A stretch of DNA of 64,000 bases from Siphonodentalium dalli (Eukaryota; Mollusca; Scaphopoda; Gadilida; Siphonodentaliidae): positions 115,361,195 through 115,425,194 of the forward strand of contig CP136065.1 of assembly GCA_032622095.1 (NCBI GenBank), written 5' to 3'. This document shows positions 12,101 through 57,264 of this stretch, piece after piece (positions within the stretch are counted from its first letter, which is position 1; the number at the start of each line of letters is the position of its first letter). The notes under the pieces were generated by a model. It did no database searches, was not told the DNA's origin, and saw only the letters and a list, made by a program, of their open reading frames with translations. A program made the position numbers and the translations under genes.

Positions 12101-15100
12101 ATGGAAAACAATTTCTAGGGTGGATAGTTTGAAGTCATACCAGTTCAAACAAGATTGTTTCTTTGGTTGTGGTATTACTCTGTATTCGGCTGTTGCTCTT
12201 CTGACAAAACAGAATTGTCTCGACTTTGAAAATTGCTTGGTAGACATATTGTATGGATAAATGCCTACAGGAGTTAGTGTCTGTGTGACCTTTTCAGTGG
12301 TCATAAGAAGATATGCCATGCCATGTGCTAATCAATTACTAACACCTGTTAGCGATATTGAAACAAAATACAAATAGCTACTGCATACAATATTTACATT
12401 AGCCATTTGTTCCACTGTAAGCCTGGATATATCTGAAATGCAGACATGCTGGTGCAAATTCAAGATGGCCACCATAACCATAAAACCCTTATGGTGGTCA
12501 AAAGTGACAAATTATGGCCAATAGAGGTCATGTATTATTCATGCCCGAACATGACAACAGAAAATTTAGCAGATGCGACAAATTAAATTAAACATCCCTG
12601 CCTAAATCCACATAAATTGGATCATATACATAATAGTGCTCTTCACCTGTGGTGATGAATATATACAATAATACAATAAAATTCAATGTAACAGACTAGT
12701 GGTTGCATTATTTTATCGCAGATATTTGCCTGTATATACCTGAATATACCCAAAATACTGGCATACAAGTATAAATCCAAGATGGCCACCAAGGTCATGT
12801 GACCTCCATATGGTGGCCCAACCATATGTTCACTCACCTGTGAAGGTTGAACAAAATATACCCAATAATACTAAAGATACACTACATTAACCATATACAC
12901 CCACAATCTATGTATACATCTACAGAATGCGTGGCACTGGGGCGACCATATCTGGTGCTGCGTGGCATCAAAAAAATTAAGGTCAACAGAGAGATTAGGT
13001 ATGCAGAAAGTCAAAATATTTAATACCAGAGGTCAATCAGAAAAATGTTGGTTATATTTAGTCAAGCAAAGAGTAAAATCCAAGATGACTGCATGTTTTT
13101 CATTGAAAATCGTTCAAATTTGATCTAGATATGATCCTAAACATGCCTGTATATTTTCAAAAACAATTTTCCAATAAATGCAGGTTGTAGGGAGTGCCGA
13201 TGGAAATTGAAATCCTGCAGCCGCATTTATTGGAGAAATATTTAGAAAATTTATATGCATGTTTAGGATCACCTCTAGGCTCTAGTTGGGAGCTATTGAA
13301 TTTGAACAACTTTTAATGAAAAACATGGCCACCAACGCATCTTGGATTTTACTCGAGCTATCATTTTTTTTTCCAGAAATTCGTTAAAAAACATGAGCCG
13401 ATGGATTTAAATTTAAAATCCACAATGGCTGCTGGCAGTCATGTTTTTTAATGAATTTCTAAAAAAAAAATAATCGAAGGCTCCCATTAAAGGTCACCCT
13501 GAAGATCCATATGAAGTTTTGGGATGATTGGATGAAGGATGTGGTCTGTTGGGTGAGCTGAAGGAAATTGTTGATGCACACATGGATGCCAAGCCATAGC
13601 AAAAGTTCAAAAACGATTTCATCAAGAGTGAGCTGAAAACGGTGATGAGAATTTAGTTATAGATATATTGAGCCCTAATGCATTTGACTTGAATGTTCAT
13701 AAAGAGAGGATTAATTAAAAGATGGTTATTCAAATTTTCTCATATACTATGTGCATAAAATCCATATTTCTGGACATCAATTTTGGCAGTTATTCGTTGA
13801 AGCAAGTGTACTCCAGGGCAAGACCTCTATACTGATTCCGTACAAATCTACCATATTTTTCAAGAGATGGCTACTAGGCATTGGCAATATATGTTAAGTT
13901 GTAGAATTAATATGTTACACACACGTAGTAAACTATAAATTATGCAGTCATACCTGTCAACAAATTCACTGATATCTTCATATTTACTAAGATCTGGTAA
14001 ATTTGGTTTTGAGAGTTTCTTCACAGCTCTACTCAATCCAGTGGGAACCACTCTTATGTTACTGCCAATGGATATATGAAGAAGTATAAAGCTAGCAATC
14101 TAAATGTTCAATGTGCCTTAAATAACATACAAACAAATAAAGATGTACAAATGTATTTAAAGAAGGTTGAATGGATGATGGTATTTGAAGACTGTTGGAT
14201 GTCTATGTTGCATTGCCTTTACTGCTGTGCCTACATGCATATCACTATATTTTCACATGTTAAAGATTTTACAAGTGAAAATAACCGATTGTATTTGGTT
14301 GAGTTATCGTACTGATGTTTTTAAAATTGCTAAAAATAATTGTGCATGTAAGTTATATTAAGTTAATTAACAGTTTTCCTGTTAATTGCTTGAATGATAT
14401 ACAGCAAATAAATAACAACTTAAATCTGTTAACTACTTTATTACAGAATGGTTCTCCCACTAAGATCCACGATTATACATTGGATTGGTCCACACTTCAT
14501 GTGTAGGGTTTCAGATACTTTAACTCTTTCATGACTGAAGCAGCACTGGTGCAGCATTAAAGATCCTGTGCCGGTGCATTCTCTTATATATTCGAGTCTC
14601 CCTATTGCATATATAAGACAATGCATTGGCACAGGGTTTTCGTAAAATTTCAGGAAGCTCCAGTTATGAAAGTGTTAAGCAAATGACAGGCAGATATAAT
14701 CTCTAAGGATTCATTTGTAGGAAAGTTCAGCTAATCAGTTCAACAGACAGCCTGGAGTTGAAAAAAACATGACTAACAACATTTATCAAACAATCAAGAC
14801 TCAACAATCCAGACAATCAAATCAGTGACTCAACATTTAATCTTCAAGTATCAGTATGAAGCAAGTGACTTAGTATCTTTGTCATGTAAAAGGAAAACAG
14901 AGAATGTTCTTCTGTTGCTACATTCTGCAGAGAAAACAGGATGTTTCTCATTTTAAGGCGATAACATTTTTCATTTCAATATGTCTTGCAGTGGCAAATA
15001 GGGTAATTAAAGTATTCAATATATTTAGCACAATACATTGAAACTACTCAATATATTTATGGCAAGTATGCATTAATTAGGTTTAATCTGAGGCTTGACT

Positions 15101-18100
15101 ATTATATACATTAAAACTCTCGAAAACGGACACTCTATAAACCGAATCCCTCTCCATACCGAAAAATTTGTCCAGTCCCGAATTCACCCAAGTGCATACT
15201 CACTAAAAATTACCTCTGTAACTGGAAAATCTCTATTCCGAACATTGAATAAGTGAACGAATAAATCAATTTTTAATTCCAAAATCCGAACACAAAAATC
15301 GACACCAACCAAATGCACATGCTGCAGATTTGACATACTTGATGCTGAGCTCTTATTGACTTTTGTGAAAAGTTTAAACCTCTGGTTTACATTAAACTCT
15401 TAGTGGTCGTTTTCGTGATGGCTCATTCATTGTGACAGGTTGAATAAAACTTATTGGTGACAATACATTGCTATCGTTTTATTTTAGTGAGTTTCATTAG
15501 TGTTTTGTTTGGACAGTGGTCATAAAATAAGAGTCCACCTCAGTGCGATGATTGATGTAAAAACATTGTGTCAGTGCTCTATTCTCCGCGAAGTCACCAT
15601 TGTTCACTCAATGTGTAAAATAAGCACAGTTATCTAATATGACACATGCTGTTATAATTCGGTTCAAAGCTTACGCCGAACAAAGACTGCTAATTAAATC
15701 TGGCAGTACGCATATTCAACATTACAAAACTATAATACATATGCTACATTAATATTGTCAGCAACATTTTCAAATCACCGTAAAATTTATCGTTGAATAA
15801 AGTTAAATTTCATAATGACATCAATACATTCCAATCGTAGTGTGATTTTATATAAACCGAACACCTCTCTAAACCGAACAGAAAAACCGGTCTGAGTGTG
15901 TTTGGTTTGGAGAGGTTTTACTTTAACCATCAACACTATATTGAGTAACATAAATTATTACTTACTAGTGTCTGAACTGTATCCTCTTGGTTTCTGGATC
16001 ATAGTCGAGCAGAAGACACCTTCTAATTTTGTTGAGTTTCACCTGATGATAAAGTAAACAAGAATAATGGCAGACTCAATGTGGTTATGGGCATAACCGC
16101 AACAAAGGTTTAGCAAACTCGGGATAAGTCCCAGTTGGCTGAATGTTTTACCATGTAAACCTGAGATATCCAAACATTATGAGAACAGTGGAAGGAATAT
16201 TAAGTTATGTTAACTATCGCAGGTCATTTGTTAAATTTATCTGAACATTCCTCAAGAGAACGAGCGTCGCACAGCGACCGCATTTATCCCGTCAGGTCGC
16301 TAAAACATGACAGCTAGAGAGACACGTTTGCAGTTGTTTACCAAAACTACGAATAGAACCAAAACAAGATCACGTGCCCGATTGGGTCAGTTGCTAAATA
16401 AAGATTTGATGGATCATGCGGATCGATACACAAATTCCATTGGTGGTATTAACATGCAGTATTATATGATCATTAATAAGATTTAATAAGTCAACATCTG
16501 CCTGGTAATTTATTCGCAATGTTACCAAAAACTCGCAGCAGCATCAGGGCAATATATAACCAGGGTGCTGATCGTTCTCAGTAAATCGGGAGAGCGGAAC
16601 TATATCGCCTGAGGCACGTGATCAAGTCGTGAGAGGGCCAAGGTCTTTTCGCAAGATTCGAAAATTGGGGAAAGTATGTATTTGTTTGAGCTCTCCGTTT
16701 TTATTTTTTATTTTGCCAGTCTCCACGATGGTTCGTGTGCTCGTTCTCGGCCATTCTTTCGTTAATCGTCTGGGGTGCCATTTATACGGAGGGCCGAGGT
16801 GCAGGAAATTCCCCAAATGGACAAATTTCGCCCGAAAGTTGAACATTAGCACTCATCGGCGAAATGATAATCGTTTGCGACACGTGTGCGTCCGGTTCCT
16901 GGGTCGTTCGGGGGCGACAGTACGGCAGTTAAGGGTCGACAGCGACGTAAAGAGTACTCTTGAGCGTTTCCGTCCTGATTTAGTGGTGTTACAGGTGGGG
17001 GCAAATGACCTTTGTTCCCTGGGTCCGGAAGTGGTCGCCTGCGAGATCGACGAATATGTGACCCACCTGCGGACGCATTATGGAGTTCCGGCCGTCTTTG
17101 TGAACCGCCTATTTATACGTAGTACTATTTCACGCCGATTCTCTTCCATCACATTAGACGTCCTTAACCAGCGGATACAGACCACAAACGTTATGCTGGG
17201 CGACTACTTCGAAGGCCGACCCGGTACTCTTCTCTGGCGCCAGACCCGACTCGAGAGGGCAGTCCGGTACTTCTTGGTGGACGGCGTCCATTTCAACCTT
17301 GGGGGGATGCAGAAGTATTACTGGGGCGTCCGTGGAGCATTGCTCTTTTTCCTCAACCACTACTAGTACTTGTATTAAACATTAACCTCGTTGTCACTGC
17401 TTATACATGTATCAATATTCTCGGGTCGTGGCAGGGGCTTTGCCCCTCCGTCACTCCTCCATGCCTTTTCGTCGTTTAGCATGGGGGTCACTTCCTTCCC
17501 TCCGTAACTCGTCGCAATTTATATTTCCACGCACCAATTCCCCTCGCTTCCCATAAGAATACGGGGTTCATACGTGTGCTTGTACCGGTATATCTTGAAA
17601 GTGCTTGATTAGGTTTTGGAATTTTCAAGCCCTTGAATGTCATTGAATTGTCTCTCAAACACACTAAGGTGCTGTACGTGCTTGATTTACGTGTTCAAAT
17701 GTTGACTTATTGCCACACGCTTGTTTCCTACGCATTATCAAGCTAGATATTTCCACAGCTATATTTCTTCTTTTTACTTAATCAATTTTATCAAGTTATC
17801 TATGGGACAATCATCTGTCCGGATCATATTTTCTTTCCACTGGTAGTAGTAATATCTTTTATTTACGTGACAAGTGCATGTTAAATTACAATTTTTTTTA
17901 GACATTTAGTTTACATGGCGCACCCGGCCCTAGTGGGCCTATCTGTCACCCTGAAAATAAGAGTTAATTAATTTTTGCATTGTACATCATTTAGTACATC
18001 ATATAAATATGAATGTTCAGTAATTGGATATATAAATATATGCACACTCTTGATTAAAGCTAGTATACCCTTGTATTTAATGCAATACATGTAATAGTAT

Positions 18101-21100
18101 GGATGGCATTATTGTTTTATTCTTCATTCAAACAAAGCATAAGATGTGCATCGGACCATTTTGTGAGAGCTGGATTCCCTCGCTCGTCTTAAATGCAAAT
18201 ATTTCTATAATCAGTAGTCTGGGAAGTGCTTAAAGTTATTCGAACCATTGCTTGAATTGAAAGTTTTTGAAAAGTACTTGATTTTGGTTTGACATTCATA
18301 GGGGGAACCTTGGAATAGTCCCAATGTTTTCGACACTGCCGCCATCCATTTCCCGACAGTTCTCAATTTGGGATTCCAGCGCCTTGCCGTCACTTTCATT
18401 ACGGTACTCACTAATTTCGCTGCCGAGGGAAGTCGATTATTGTGCGGACATGTCCATGGCTGAGTGTGGGTTTTCTTATCCATCCGCTGTTTCCGATCCG
18501 GCTTATGAAATTTTTGGAACCCGATCAAAAATTTGACGTGCGAGTGTCTTCCGTTACGAAATTTTCCTTTCGGCACGCGTCGTCTTCCACGGTTGTACAG
18601 GTCGAGCGCACTTTGTCGGGCTGTTCATCGGGCGGGTTCCGTGCGGGCTCTGGTCTCCGCCAGGATTTGTTCAATATGGCTTGGTTCCTTCGCATAGGCC
18701 AAGTCCGACGGGTTCCTATGCATAGGCTCGTCTTTCGTTCCTCAATGCTACATGCATGTATTTAGTCACCGGCATCCTTGGTCCACTCATTAATTTCGGC
18801 TTGGTCCCTACGCTTAGGCCATGTCCGACCGGTTTCCTACGCATAGGCCCGGGCTACTTGACTCTATATATGTTCCTAATGTTCCTAAATATGCCTAGCT
18901 TCCTACGCTTAGGGCTGGCTCGTCTTGTCTTCCTACGCCTAGGGCAAGACGCTATGTCACTATCTAATATTCGCCGATATATCGAGGCTTCAGTGAGCTT
19001 GCTTCCTCAGTTTTGGGCAGGCAGAGTTTCATTGTCGTCGGTGCGTTACGCGTAATCCATCGTTTATCCTTCTCGCTTGATTTCCTTCGCTAGGGCTAGC
19101 TTGCCGTTTTACCTTCCTTTGGTCAGTCGGTTGTCGCGCCGCCTTTCACTACTTAATAATATCGCCGGTTGCTCCTCCGTGTTAACATGATGGCCTTTGC
19201 GTTCTCTGCCTCGGGTTTCGTCGCGTCCTGTCTGTTGTCTGTATGTTTCTGTATGCCTGTTTTCCTACGCCTAGGGCAGGCACCATTCTGGTGTTTAACG
19301 ACGTCACGTAACCGAGGTTTAGAAGGAAGAGATATTTGAACTTGGCCGTTTGTATCTGTGTGGTTTTAACAACGGACCGTTAATTCATCATGCTACTTGA
19401 GATGTGCTCATTGTCTTCCCGTTACATGTCAATCTAATGACCTGGTATTTACATTTGTGGAGCACCGCGGCGCGTGGCCAACAATATTTATGTAGGATGC
19501 CGGTACCAGCGCAGGGCCATGTGTGAGCTTTCAGGTCGGCACAGTTTATTTTGCTCGTACTAGCGGTGTCGGTCCGTCCCGTGTCGTTCCACGGTCGATA
19601 TTTGGGGTTGGGCAACCCGATTTCCCCGATAGGCACATTTCCATATGGTATCTGGCGCGTAACCCTTTGCTTCATCTTCGCGACAGGTTCCCTCTGGCTG
19701 TTGGATTACAGATTCATCATTAAAGTTATGCCTGGGCGCGGTCGCCCTGCCACGAGACGCGCAACAGCGCAGCGTCGTACGGACACCAAACTCGTCCGGC
19801 CCGTCCAGCATCTGTCCGCCGATCAACAAGAGGTCGTAAAACTGGGCGTCAACCTGCAACACGACAAACTACCCGCAGAGCGCTGTCCATTTCTCCGCCT
19901 AGACGTTCCGGGTCCTCAAGCTGTTCACCCCCTCCCAAACGGGGCCGTAGACGTTCGCGACAACCATCTTCACCAGGTAGTGCGTCAGCCAGTGAGCGTA
20001 GCTCGCCCGCTCGTTCTGTGCCAGTTTCAGGCTCGTCAGACGTTTCTCGACAATCCATTAACACTTCCGTTAGTCCTGTTTGGGGTGCTTCTGCCACGTC
20101 GCTTGAGCGCGAGAGAGTTGCACCCCCGACGTCCGCCCAATTTCAGTCCATTTCGGTGCCATTGGGCACTTCCGTCCCCTCTACAGTGAAGGGTAAAATA
20201 TGGGGTGACGAATATGTCGACTTCGCAGGGCTGCTTCCGTCTGGCCCCAATCGTTCCGTCTCACAGACCCAGTGGGTTGACTCCCCGGTGGGGCAAATTT
20301 GATCCGCAGCGCCCCCTCCACCTCGCGCCATTTCCACCATTTATTTACTCAAGTGCCCTGTCGCAGCCATCGCATTGGTTAAGTATCAATCGAATATCCG
20401 CCACTTGGCGGCCGTTAAAGCGGATTGGATGGGCTATGATCGTTCTTTCCGGGAGCTGCGGCAACATAGTCCTGGGCTGTGGTGGGACTGTTGGCACTGG
20501 GAACTGTATATGCAGGCCCGCGAATTCAGGGAGCCCCCCCTAGCAGGCAGACCATATGCTGCGCGCCACCAGTCTAGCCCGGGGAGGGTTCCGGTCCCTG
20601 TGGGCTTCTGTCAGCGATTCCACGGTGGGCAATTCTGCTCGTTCGCGCGATGCAATTTCAAACATGGTTGTTTTAAGTGCGGGGGGCTCCATAGGGTGAC
20701 CCAATGTGCAATGGGGTCTCGTCCTCCGTATACTTCCTTTCTCCGCAAGGGCCCCGGAGGAGGGCCCCGCGCCGGTTCCCGACCAGCTCCGCGACACCAA
20801 TCAGCTCCCAACCCCCATCAACGTCGCTAGATTGGCGTCCATGCTTGAGGGTTACGACGACGCTCTAGCTCAATTTGTTATAAAGGGTTGTACATTCGGT
20901 TTTGATATTTGTTCTCAGTCGGGTCCAACGGGTACAATGGGCATTGGTAACCTTAAATCCGCTCTGGAAAATCCTGGCTTAGTGGCGGAAAAGTTAGACA
21001 AAGAGGTGCAAGCCGGACGGATGGCAGGCCCATTTGCGCAACCTCCTTTTCCGTATCTCGTGATCTCACCAATCGGCCTGGTGGAGAAGTCTATTTCGGG

Positions 21101-24100
21101 CACTTTTCGTATGATCCATCATCTCTCTTTTCCGCACGGATCTTCAGTTAATGATAGCATACCGGAAGCAGTTTCGTCGGTTTCTTATCAAACGATTCAA
21201 GATGCTATCTCCATCATCACTGATATTGGTCCTTCAGCATTCCTCGGAAAATTTGATATACGAAATTCCTTCAGACAACTCGCTGTTAGCCCGAGAAACT
21301 ACCCCCAGCTCGGCCTTCAATTTTCTGGCAAATTTTATTATGATAAATGCCTCCCGATGGGGGGCCGCTCTAGCTGCTTTATATTCGAACGGTTTAGCAC
21401 AGCTTTGTCATGGATTTTCCAGAGCGTTGGTGTCGGTAACGTGGTGCACGTGTTGGACGATTTCCTCGTGGTGGAGAACGATTTTCTAGCCTGTCAGCAT
21501 AGCCTGGAAACTGCTTTAGATATGTGCGAATTCTTGGGCGTCCCCATCGCAGGGGAGAAAACCGTATTACCAACGCAGACTATTACCTTTCTCGGCATCG
21601 AGTTAGACATACCTTCGAAATCTGCTCGCCTTCCTTCCGAGAAGCTAGTTAAGTGCGAAGGCTTGATCAACTATTTTCTCAGCCATCACAGCACTACACT
21701 TCGCGAATTACAGTCCCTAGTGGGCCTCCTTAGTTTTACATGTTCCGTCATAATACCCGGGCGTGCTTTTTTGCGTCGGCTGATTAATCTCACAATTGGC
21801 GTCAAAAAGCCGTATTACAAAATTCGTTTCACAACCACTGTCAAGGATGACCTGCGGATATGGCTCAGTTTTCTGCAGGCTTTTAACGGAAAATCGTTCT
21901 TCTTCACGGAACCCTGGGCGACTAATCAATCCCTCCATCTATGGACAGATGCCTCGGGAGCGCACGGATGCGGGGCTATTTTAGGGGTGGAATGGTTAAC
22001 GGTCCCTTGGCAGTCAGCTGAGAAATCTCTGAGTATCGCGATTCTGGAATTTTATCCCATTCTTTTGGCAGTCCGAATTTGGGGACCACAACTACAAAAT
22101 CGCAAAATTCTGTTTCATTCCGACAATCAGGCCGTCGTTAGCATTATCAACAGTCAAACAACACGGGACGTTAAGCTCCTGCAGCTCCTGAGGCAACTGG
22201 TTCTCGCTTGTTTAATTAATAATATACAGTTCAGGGCCGTGCACGTCCCCGGCACGGCCAACATTCCGGCTGATATGATTAGTTGATTTCAATTTCAGGC
22301 TTTTCGGCGGCTCTGCCCGGGCGCTCTGGTGGACCCTGTTCCGATCCCATCCGAGTTGACGTTGCAGAACTTAATAACACTGTGACCTTCTTAGTTCACC
22401 AAGGCCTAGCGCCTCGGACTCATGTCCAATATAATGGGGCACTCGCCGACTATATGTCATTTTGTCAGGCTATCGCCTCTCCGCCGTTCCCAGCTAGCAC
22501 CAATACAATTTCGCTCTTCATCGCCTCTCTATACCAGCGAGGCCTGGCTTATAAAACAATCCGCTCTCGTCTGTCCGCCATTACATATTTTAGTAAATTG
22601 AAAGAGCTACCCGATCCGGCGTCCAATTTTATGATTCAAAAAATGCTGGTGGGTACCAGACGCTTGCGCGGCTGCCCTGATCGCCGGAAACTGATCACGC
22701 CATCAATTCTCAGCAAACTCGTCCGGTCTCTGACCTCTGTCACGGACACAACTTACGCTAAACATTTGTACCAGGCTGCCTTCACTACCGCCTTCTTTGC
22801 TTTTGCACGCATCGGCGAACTCTGCCCAACCTCGGTCCGCGACCACAATTTGGTCTTACAAGTCAGCGACATTAGCATCTCTGCAAGGAACCACCGGATG
22901 TTCCTCACATTCCGACACTTTAAGCACAATGTCGGGGGTGTTCCTCATCGTATTCGCGTCGGGGCCGGCCGCACTCCTATTTGCCCCATCGATTCCATGC
23001 GGCAGTACTTGCGCTTCCGAGGCTCTCATCCTGGTCCCTTGTTTAGCTGGCCCGATGGCCGCCCTTTATTATATGGCACCTTCGTCACAGTGTTGCGGAC
23101 GTGCCTCACCTATTGCGCTTTAGACCACATCCTGATTAAGGCCCATAGTTTTCAGATTGGTGCGGCTTGCTGGGCGGCGGGGAGAGGATATTCGGATGCC
23201 CAGATACGGTTGATGGGTAGGTGGAAGTCAAATGCCTTTCTGTTATACATCCGGGGTTGATACTGGTCCCTCTTGGTTTCACTACGCTTGAGCGAGTGGA
23301 ATATCGCACCCACACTTTACATTCGTAAGTCACTTATTGAGTCTGCCCGTTGCTTGAGCGCGGTCAGCCTCGCTTGCCTATTCATCATTGTTATTATGTT
23401 ATTCCTTAATGGCTTTCTAATAAACTTTGCAACCAAATCTGGGCGCTCGTGCTTCCTTTGCCCGGGGGCAGGCTAGTCGTTCCCCGGGGTGACAGGCTCT
23501 GTAGCGCCTTGCTTGAGCGGGTGCGACCGGGGCTGTCATCCAGCTTTTCATCGCAACTTCAGATATCGTTTGACTGCGGTTTCACCGGGTGATAGCTACC
23601 CCTTACGGTCATTTGTCGTTCACTCCAATGGTGGCCCCTGCGGCACTTTGTTTGAGCAAGGGCTGCAGGGTACCGTCTCTCCGCGTAAACCATTAATTAA
23701 TTGTCATTTTGCCTATGTGGAACTCTTGGCCCTTCGCTTGAGCGAGGTCCAGTTTAGATTATTTGACCCACCTTCCAGCACTCACCCCCCCCCCCTTTTT
23801 TTGGCGGGATCGAAATGCCTGCGCAGCACGCAGTTCGATTTTGGCGCATTGGGGGCCAAAAAAGGAAGACGCGAAGCAAGAAATGGATAACTGGACAGTG
23901 AACATCCTACCAATAATCTTTTTGATTAATAATTCATTAAATAAAGGTAGTCAATCAGGCAGACCTGTCTTTGTTGTGTTACGACCCTGCGGGATAAAAC
24001 GAGCGTCGCACAGCGACCGCATTTATCCCGTCGGGTCGCTAAAACATGACAGCTAGAGAGACACGTTTGCAGTTGTTTACCAAAACTAAGAATAGAACCA

Positions 24101-27100
24101 AAACAAGATCACGTGCCCGATTGGGTCAGTTGCTAAATAAAGATTTGATGGATCATGCGGATCGATACACAAATTCCATTGGTGGTATTAACATGCAGTA
24201 TTATATGATCATTAATAAGATTTAATAAGTCAACATCTGCCTGGTAATTTATTCGCAATGTTACCAAAAACTCGCAGCAGCATCAGGGCAATATATAACC
24301 AGGGTGCTGATCGTTCTCAGTAAATCGGGAGAGCGGAACTATATCGCCTGAGGCACGTGATCAAGTCGTGAGAGGGCCAAGGTCTTTTCGCAAGATTCGA
24401 AAATTGGGGAAAGTATGTATTTGTTTGAAATTACCTCCCCCACCCTCCCCCTTTTTTGTTTGATTGGTTGTTTTGTGATCCTGCGGCATTCGCTTGGCAC
24501 TGACCAGCAGACATCACTAACCAGGGGGTCTAGTGTCTCGTTTCAGGTCTGGGTTCCCACGGACTCCGCTTGTTTGCTTGTGGCCATGGCGCATTGGGGG
24601 CCAAAAAAGGAAGACGCGAAGCAAGAAATGGATAACTGGACAGTGAACATCCTACCAATAATTTTACGACTACCTTTTTGATTAATAATTCATTAAATAA
24701 AGGTAGTCAATCAGGCAGACCTATCTTTGTTGTGTTACGACCCTGCGGGATAAAAATATTTATCAATGAGTATTTAGTCACCATTATTCATTTAACTTCA
24801 ACGCAATCCACATCAGCCATTTCATAATACAATTGCATAATGAGATTCTCTCTGGCACTCTGCCAAGGTGTGGCTATATTTGAATGTTTCTTTACTTGTA
24901 AAATTGCTATTAAATCAGGTGAATTCTAAGTAAAATTAAAAAGGCTGCAACTCGTGCAAATATAATTGGACCACACTTTCGAACTTAGCCTGTATTTTTT
25001 ATGAAAAACGCACATTCTAACTGTAATTCTGATCACATAATCCAAACTGGAGTTATGGGTCATAAACCAAAATGTTATGAAATCAGATAAATTCTAAGTC
25101 AAATAAGGACCATAACTCATGTAAAAATAATTGGACAGAACCCATATTCGAACTTGGCCTGTATTTTTGGCTGAGGAACCAAATATTTGCAGTATAATAT
25201 GTATTCCCTTTAAGATTTCTACCTAATAAGCTATATGGTATATCCCTCAAATGTTCTTGGTACACGAAGGGTGAAACAAAATTTGGTACAGATTATCGAT
25301 GGTAAGATATCGTACTATTATTTGTAAAATGTCACTTCGGGTGACATGCCTATATAAGCCTGTGTGAGAGGCGTATCTTCCTTTTTCATAATCCTGAGCT
25401 TGTGGGGTGGGTTGTTATTTAAAACTGGGAGGCACTCCAGTTTAGTGGGTAGTAATCTTATAGGGAATACAAATACTGTGACCTCTTCGGGCGTAATATT
25501 TTTTACTTCAGTAGACCATCGTAATTTTAGAATTATTATAATTATAGAAGTCATTCTGGTCTTGAGAGTATGAAAGTTTTCTTGCCAAAACGGATCCTAT
25601 TATTCGCAAGAGCCGTTATCATACAGCCTTTAAATAAGTGACATATTCTTAATGACTTTGATTCTTGAAAAATATATATACCTCAATAGTTTCCAAATTG
25701 TTATGTATATAGCAAGATAAATGCTCATAAATATGGAAGGATCGAAGCCTTTTGTTCACATGTTCGATCATCAAAGTGGCGAATGTGTTATAGTTTCAAA
25801 AGCATGGTTATCTTGTTTAGCATGAAGTTAGTTATCCATATCTGAGATCCAGGATGCTGGTTGTAACATACTCAGTGCTTAGCTTTTTTTTCAACAAAGT
25901 GTAGTAACTTATGGTTGTGCCATTTGTGAGTGGTTCCTTGGTTAGTTGTATATACAAGGTACATATAAATATACACAACTCTGAAGGTATCCGATTATCG
26001 TAAGCAAGTTTATTCTGAGAGAAATTGAGAATCTGCTCATGCACACACATCATGAAGCGATATCTATTATATATGTATCAGATTTATGAAGGCACGGACT
26101 CAGTATGAGTGTTCATTGCTACGAATGTGCTTGTGCAGCGAGTGCCAACAAATTCTCATTTCTTATTGAAATGGCCATGTATCGATCGGAATGACATATT
26201 GAGTTTTTCTGGACCGATTTTCGCCCATGTCAGGGTTAGAACCAGTGCCAACCTTGTCTATTCCAGACTGCGATGATCTTATCCATGACCTAAACAACTC
26301 GACTACATCGACATCCTTAAATAAAAATGTCAATGATACTGTAGCTCAACTTGTAGAAGGGATAATTTCGTGTGTTATAGTCAATGGAGTGCTAAGGAAT
26401 GTGGAAGTTAAAATGTCTAAGTAATACTAGATGTCGTCATGAAGATATACATGTATATGAAGTTTGGGATTCAGCAAGTGTATGTCAACCTCCGTTGCAA
26501 ATTTCATGAGGATAAGATGAACAGTACAAAGTATAGCCTGCGCTAATGGATTGAATTTGATTTTGCCGAATGACCCCAAAATGACTCCTTCCCATCTGCA
26601 TGTCAATGTCAAAACATCCATGACAAATTTTATAATTATCTGACCAAAGGTAAGGCCTGTAGCACGTACTAATGGATTTACATTGTTTAATACTGAAAAA
26701 CAAGATGGCAGACAGCAGCCATGTTTTTTGGAAAATTCAACCCAAAACATATCACTCCCATTCATGTCAATGTCAACATCCATGACAAATTTCATAAATA
26801 TCTGACCAAAGGTACGGCCTGTAACAGGTACTAATGGATTTACATTGTTTGATACTGAAAACCAAATGGCCGACAGCAACTATGTTTTTTGGCCAATGCA
26901 CCCGAAACATATCGTTCCCATCTATATGTCAACCTAGATGGCAAATTTCATGATGACCAGATGAACGGTACGGCCTGTAGCCATTGCTAATGAATGAATT
27001 TTGAAATCCAAGATGGCCGCTGGTAGCCATGTTATTTTGCCGAATGACCCCAAAATGACTTGATCTATCAACATGTCAACATCCATGACAAATTTCTTAA

Positions 27101-56940: not shown

Positions 56941-57264
56941 AGTGATATATAGTACAGTAGCATGTAGTATGTAAGCTAAAGTCATCTTGGGTGTAGTGAT
57001 ATATAGTACAGTAGCATGTAGTATGTAAGCTAAAGTCATCTTGGGTGTAGTGATATATAGTACAGTAGCATGTAGTATGTAAGCTAAAGTCATCTTGGGT
57101 GTAGTGATATATAGTACAGTAGCATGTGGTATGTAAGCTAAAGTAATCATGGGTGTAGTGATGTATAGTACAGTAGCATGTGGTATGTAAGCTAAAGTCA
57201 TCTTGGGTGTAGTGATATATAGTACAGTAGCATGTAGTATGTAAGCTAAAGTCATCATGGGTGT
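56941..57264. repeat. 54-bp minisatellite, six copies
   Basis: Units starting AGTGATATATAGTACAGTAG begin at 56941, 56995, 57049, 57103, 57157 and 57211 with few differences. Because 54 is divisible by three, the minus strand stays open for 142 codons as an 18-residue repeat. That frame is an artefact of the array. Confidence 0.95.

Follow-up and report, generated by a model that had tools for sequence, protein, structure and literature searches.

Two arrays of fixed-tip hairpins in a Ngaro-like retrotransposon: candidate recognition signals kept by gene-less relatives

Introduction

How a retrotransposon with a tyrosine recombinase (YR) chooses the RNA that it reverse transcribes is not addressed in the parts of the literature covered by our searches. 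The locus described here, in a window of 64,000 nucleotides (the whole stretch of DNA that was analysed) from Siphonodentalium dalli, raises this question: an earlier note had reported eight hairpins with a fixed apex upstream of gag in an element assigned to the Ngaro group, and had read the matched changes in their stems as a sign of selected structure. Literature searches on hairpins or packaging in Ngaro/DIRS elements, on non-autonomous Ngaro elements and on covarying retrotransposon hairpins returned no such arrays at the level of titles and abstract openings, and the terms hairpin, secondary structure, zinc and non-autonomous are absent from the main texts of PMC3783388 and PMC9210276. 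In the current study we ask whether these hairpins are selected structures, how widely they occur in a genome of 2.23 Gb (nine contigs), and what might read them.

Results

The element and its coding parts

The element at 16259-24755 fits a Ngaro-like retrotransposon, the identity given to it in the earlier note, since it combines direct repeats split in the Ngaro order (A1 ... B1 A2 B2) with an SGNH hydrolase, gag-like ORFs, a reverse transcriptase (RT) with RNase H and the N-terminal domain of a YR (Table 1). The match to PF00078 lies above the cut-off, that to PF17917 below its own, and that to PF13495 (N-terminal phage-integrase SAM) just above; no Pfam match was obtained for the catalytic domain of the YR ORF or, at E up to 0.01, for the gag-like region. 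The SGNH hydrolase ORF is the first ORF of the element and lies directly after A1, upstream of gag. Searching the genome with the RT returned at least 93 matches at 48-100% identity (91 of 2767 candidates scored), and the same RT found no relatives among viral contigs.

Table 1. Features of the element, in window positions, and hairpin classes of other Ngaro families, by place in the element
Feature	Position	Strand	Basis or copies
Split repeat A1	16259-16689	+	99.5% over 431 bp to 23998-24428; 300-nt ungapped core
SGNH/GDSL hydrolase ORF	16572-17366	+	PF13472, E 6.8e-10
Type A hairpin 1	18678-18705	+	covariance models
Type A hairpin 2	18706-18733	+	weakest of the seven with independent model R3, E 0.0043
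Type A hairpin 3	18798-18825	+	covariance models
Type A hairpin 4	18827-18854	+	covariance models
Type A hairpin 5	18893-18920	+	covariance models
Type A hairpin 6	18922-18950	+	covariance models
Possible decayed type A copy (stem and UU bulge, tip lost)	18996-19023	+	11.1 bits, not above chance
Degenerate type A copy (eighth site of the earlier note)	19074-19101	+	13.4 bits, not above chance
Type A hairpin 7	19254-19282	+	covariance models
Gag-like region, two frames (19724-20302, 20303-20830)	19724-20830	+	ORFs; CCCH-like finger and knuckle in second frame
Weak type B hairpin inside gag	20092-20116	+	17.6 bits, E 0.014
RT and RNase H-like ORF	20700-22286	+	PF00078, E 2e-7; PF17917, E 0.0015
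Tyrosine recombinase (YR) type ORF	22283-23260	+	PF13495, E 5.3e-6, N-terminal SAM-like domain only
Type B hairpin 1	23277-23301	+	covariance model R2 and fold
Type B hairpin 2	23343-23367	+	covariance model R2 and fold
Type B hairpin 3	23502-23526	+	covariance model R2 and fold
Type B hairpin 4	23641-23665	+	covariance model R2 and fold
Type B hairpin 5	23727-23751	+	covariance model R2 and fold
Split repeat B1	23842-23999	+	92.9% to B2
Split repeat A2	23998-24428	+	99.5% over 431 bp to A1
Split repeat B2	24587-24755	+	92.9% to B1
Class C, CTAGC-RCTNTA-GCTAG	upstream of gag		L035, L075, also L081
Class D, G-bulge CTGAA-AAGWA-TTCAG	after YR		L034, L074; L078 by assay
Class E, CG-bulge NNC-AAGTA-GNN with AGC/GCT, AAC/GTT, GGC/GCC	after YR		L090, L104
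Class F, loop TGCAGGGCT with GTCT/AGAC, ATCT/AGAT, GTTT/AAAC	after YR		L102
Class G, A-bulge GGC-AGGTG-GCC	after YR		L036, L076
Class H, GAC-AAGA-GTC	after YR		L084

Two hairpin types in two arrays

The usual type A hairpin, upstream of gag, has a CGCN loop on a CCUA/UAGG tip stem, below which two or three bases (mostly U) bulge on the 5' side and a lower stem, at most 7 bp long, varies in sequence. The sequence TTCCTACGCNTAGG occurs four times exactly and three times with one mismatch between 18685 and 19275, all seven on the plus strand, against a mean of 0.69 and a maximum of 5 in 100 shuffles of the window. Seven of the eight hairpins first reported are thus good copies, and the stem sequences named for them are present, but the eighth, at 19083, carries a deletion and its fold is unlike that of the other copies and no better than its own shuffles (z +0.58). 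Both this copy and a possible decayed one stand at chance level by score, since a minus-strand match outside the element, at 25151-25185 (14.6 bits), exceeds them.

A second array, absent from the earlier note, lies between the YR ORF and B1 and comprises five type B hairpins, in which a variable stem and a one-base bulge carry the tip YGC-UUGA-GCR. A further type B hairpin inside gag is weak in the window and strong in the families of L023 and L027; protein constraint may contribute to it, as the gag frame read there by hand gives similar residues in the window, L023 and L027.

Folding energy was rejected as a means of telling the hairpins from shuffles: single hairpins were unremarkable (z -2.14 to +0.58, eight pieces), the whole 651-nt hairpin region was no stabler than its shuffles (z +0.62), and the CCUA/UAGG tip is missing from the minimum-energy folds of two of the seven type A hairpins (18798 and 18922). 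The scan of 16000-25000 against the curated covariance models of Rfam (E up to 5) gave nothing at the hairpins and one sub-threshold match elsewhere.

Stems change while pairing is kept

The evidence for structure is covariation and not folding energy. In a flank-swap test the 3' flanks were re-paired among hairpins and the pairing rescored, genomic sites being chosen by tip alone and near-identical flanks being dropped beforehand (from 180 to 41 sites for type A and from 80 to 47 for type B; in a first, smaller run from 129 to 22 and from 32 to 14). Pairing in the window's seven type A hairpins scored 40.5 of 49, whereas the possible flank orders averaged 29.5, and 2 of the 5040 orders, counting the true one, did as well; the 41 genomic type A sites scored 184.5 against 151.9 (sd 5.5), a value reached in 0 of 5000 swaps. 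For type B, the 29.5 of 35 scored by the window's five hairpins was the best of all 120 orders (1/120, real order included), and the 47 genomic sites reached 178.5 against 117.3 (sd 7.9; 0/5000). The view that matched stem changes mark selected structure, put forward for type A alone, is borne out by these tests: the hairpins are a real, selected, repeated structure that forms two arrays in a Ngaro-like element.

Covariance models gave a second line of evidence. Model R3, built from 13 hairpins of gene-less loci and containing no window-family sequence, found the seven type A hairpins at E 1.6e-8 to 0.0043 in the 64-kb window, its next match being a minus-strand site at E 0.22. Model R2 includes the five type B hairpins of the window that it lists, and the test for type B is therefore the flank swap. 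Pair counts on alignments A1, A2 and A4 of type A and B hairpins, and models R1 to R3, lean towards structure because these alignments were picked for good pairing.

Strand and acting molecule

Every tip in the window lies on the coding strand (7 type A and 6 type B on plus, 0 on minus), a placement that suits RNA or one strand of the cDNA. The counts of G-U against A-C were 20:2 for type A and 8:4 for type B when uncorrected; with composition controlled, the G-U share was reached in 347 and 1664 of 5000 swaps, respectively. As distinct changes in homologous groups the counts were 13:9 and 7:1 (two wrong-strand groups included), and as single changes with the strand fixed 4:5 and 4:1.

These G-U counts do not decide for RNA, and the hairpins might act as single-stranded DNA, for example as folded sites for the tyrosine recombinase. 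Integron attC sites are folded single-strand sites read by a tyrosine recombinase; the element has an ORF for such an enzyme, and a strand-specific bulge would suit one cDNA strand. The arrays, however, are internal and not at the split repeats, and recombination among many internal copies would be expected to delete the middle of the element; we consider this reading very unlikely.

Gene-less relatives carry both hairpin types

Ten loci (L012-L021), found through the hairpin zone, have both hairpin zones; tblastn with the window's SGNH, gag, RT and YR proteins (E up to 1e-3) gave no matches in their 2-kb pieces or, for L012 and L013, in the neighbouring 6-10 kb. By blastn the ten loci matched only 18674-18973 of the window's element and, in three of them, also 23784-23971.

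A complete gene-less element of approximately 7.8 kb with the Ngaro split-repeat plan was found at C1:176724500-176735500 (G000; L053, L052), its A1/A2 and B1/B2 repeats being 99.2% and 98.7% identical. It gave no matches to the four window proteins (E up to 0.01), and in the two pieces listed none of its ORFs exceeds 136 aa; it did give hairpin-zone matches, with at least three exact A tips among the matches listed. The hairpins were counted in a C4 copy, which is 96% identical to the C1 element and is without the A2-B2 end: it contains 11 sites with an A tip, allowing two mismatches, and four with a B tip, allowing one, of which one stands apart; the longest ORF of the searched piece encodes 152 aa. 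Copies of this family gave at least 87 matches (40 of 423 candidates scored). Its kinship with the window's hairpins, as judged from sequence, is in tip and architecture only, since blastn with the window aligned only the B-repeat zone of the gene-less element.

At nearly the length of the autonomous element, the 7.8-kb element raises the point that element length itself may be under selection. Beside L018 and L019, at C6:31012522-31013097 and C6:28025174-28025749, lie adjacent units of ~198 bp, each of which matches one stretch of another element's hairpin zone; the size of a hairpin array can thus change by tandem duplication. Palindromic CCTACGCATAGG sites at L069, L070 and L072 (C1:271804713, C1:272306405, C4:124354243), three of four A-tip loci, were considered as type A arrays and set aside as probably a different palindromic repeat, their flanks being common to one another and not to the hairpin arrays.

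The hairpins thus display two properties of a packaging signal, being a conserved structured element in cis and occurring in gene-less elements. We infer that the gene-less elements depend on a helper, and their possession of the hairpins makes binding by an element protein more likely.

Hairpins in other Ngaro families

Applied to 20 pieces from ten other Ngaro copies, model R3 found 19 sites (E up to 1), all of them in L023, L025 and L029, three copies of one family with RT identities to the window of 74, 74 and 63%, and none in the remaining 17 pieces. In that family the tip stem itself varies but stays paired, as CCGA/TCGG, CCAA/TTGG or CCTA/TAGG, around an ACGCNT that is largely constant, one site being of CGCGC type. 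In the same 20 pieces model R2 found type B hairpins in 8, all from families L023 and L027, while the remaining 12 gave none. The L027 site, TTCCTACGCTTGAGCGAGG, has TTCCTACGCTT and AGG in common with type A, whereby one common reader for both types is possible. Among 15 B-pattern sites in 14 further loci, several of which are near-copies, 12 score at least 5 of 7 pairs, two of these seven being fixed by the pattern; half of the 14 loci (7) have a match to gag, RT or YR.

The window's two non-coding regions and those of 28 other Ngaro copies (58 regions) were also scanned de novo for repeated hairpins: 15 exceeded all 20 shuffles, seven of them with at least four members, and the other 43 gave nothing above shuffles. 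In DNA outside the element the same assay returned clusters of at least three in 2 of 53 1-kb and 4 of 27 1.9-kb chunks, of which at least two are regularly spaced repeats; the assay picked up such repeats at ~1150-1950 (~160 nt) and 56955-57230 (~54 nt). In looser de novo scans run earlier, families outside types A and B could not be told apart from shuffles.

Since outside DNA also gives clusters, the generality of the arrays across Ngaro families, which we regard as likely, rests on inspected contexts and the swap test and not on the assay count. In the selected contexts inspected, some other families have different tips at the same two places (classes C to H, Table 1), a finding likewise absent from the earlier note. 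Swap tests of classes C to H (35 sites, from 64 before near-identical flanks were dropped) were not significant singly (624, 1276, 516, 873, 2525 and 307 of 5000), and the value for D to H pooled, 12 of 5000, is not independent, as the cores were chosen after inspection. In the 5' region of L105 (~82-820; a copy with RT at C3:15927559) lie fourteen CGTTCTGATGGTTAATTCCAGTACG-like units, often 38-50 nt apart and with matched changes in some, which may represent either tandem repetition or a further hairpin class.

That all this is an ordinary minisatellite, or functionless chance palindromes, we hold to be highly improbable. Tandem units of ~200 bp do occur in the hairpin zone of some gene-less copies, outside DNA yields clusters as described, and the reversed control of the A tip has 41 genome matches against 149 for the tip itself (100 of the 149 listed). 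However, Tandem Repeats Finder returned no arrays at 15000-26000, and the head-to-tail copies of a minisatellite are absent from the window's element; stems vary with pairing kept; and the type B 15-mer matches the genome 55 times, its reversed control 0 times. Between eight copies including the window's, tips and bulges differ in 3.8% and 3.1% of compared cells, against 4.6% for stems and 6.5% for spacers, raw figures from related copies that carry no significance value.

Discussion

Based on fixed tips, matched stem changes and the same hairpins in gene-less relatives, the hairpins probably serve as tags that let proteins of the element recognise its own RNA. In the specific form that we lean towards, with somewhat better than even confidence and from sequence comparison, they would be cis-acting recognition or packaging signals on the Ngaro genomic RNA, read by a protein that the element supplies, most likely Gag by means of a CCCH-like finger and a knuckle. 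Such a reader would sense the fixed tip together with the bulge on the 5' side and would require of the lower stem only that it pairs; multiple copies upstream of gag and after the YR would raise avidity and nucleate particle assembly, the RNA would be reverse transcribed inside the assembled particle, and gene-less elements that keep the tags would be mobilised in trans. We infer that the hairpins act as RNA, that Gag reads them and that packaging is the step they serve.

Gag is a plausible RNA binder in view of its CCCH-like finger, its knuckle and domain matches of low score. A CX6-10CX3-6CX3H finger followed by a knuckle is present in 7 of 11 gag stretches; CCCH-type Pfam matches were obtained for two of eight gags, both below cut-off, and the best solved-structure match of the finger is a CCCH chain (E 0.25). 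The knuckle of the window's gag, CX2CX3HX4C, is one residue shorter than the usual CX2CX4HX4C, and the usual Gag knuckle is tied to RNA packaging in the part of PMC6681497 available. The finger alone does not explain tip specificity, as it is also found in gags of families without type A or B hairpins, and two tip types in one element require either one reader for both or two readers.

The arrays could alternatively be cis signals of reverse transcription or circle formation, acting through RT binding or end annealing and not through packaging. Gene-less elements would keep such signals too, the arrays lie towards both element ends, and Ngaro reverse-transcription models use annealing of repeat portions (PMC6681497, in the part available). 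Type A, however, lies ~2 kb inside the element, away from the repeats, and five to seven copies would exceed the need for a single priming or transfer site, making this account unlikely.

Reading by a host RNA-binding protein, for transcript export, stability, translation or silencing, appears distinctly unlikely to us. CCCH proteins are common RNA binders, and an array upstream of gag would suit translation control, but both types are also present in gene-less elements, which have no gag to translate, and the second array sits after the YR, while tips that differ among families of one genome would fit separate readers better.

Recognition by the element's own Gag, if correct, could be extended to a family-specific RNA address code, in which each family would carry bulged arrays with its own tip in two fixed places for its own Gag, and gene-less parasites would keep the address. 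We offer this only tentatively, as family-specific tips rest on cores chosen post hoc. If true, the turnover of tips between families would be the record of an arms race within one genome. Such a code, if true, would also provide a first packaging-type signal for tyrosine-recombinase retrotransposons within the portions of the literature searched. With its fixed tip, a compact repeated hairpin can serve as bait for in vitro tests and can help to match gene-less elements with their helpers; it also allows related elements of a single genome to be compared in their recognition codes.

In its split direct repeats, RT/RNase H, YR and SGNH, the element resembles described Ngaro-like retrotransposons (PMC9210276, main text). 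The gene-less element recalls SIRE, the gene-less partner of VIPER, in its descent from a YR retrotransposon whose ends it retains, although SIRE, as far as the available part of PMC6681497 describes it, is ~435 bp and essentially two ends, whereas the element found here is 7.8 kb with hairpin arrays. The dispersed packaging signals of RNA viruses likewise place several stem-loops that share a recognition motif along one RNA (PMC6281560, of which the text available does not describe tyrosine-recombinase retrotransposons), whereas the hairpins here form two non-coding arrays. To judge from the available parts of PMC8951182 and PMC8780742, the packaging stem-loop of the yeast L-A totivirus is similar in its essential 5' bulge and fixed loop bases, and in being common to the helper and to satellites that use the helper's machinery; that stem-loop lies near the 3' end and is read by a domain of Gag-Pol, whereas the retrotransposon described here has two arrays that differ in tip type.
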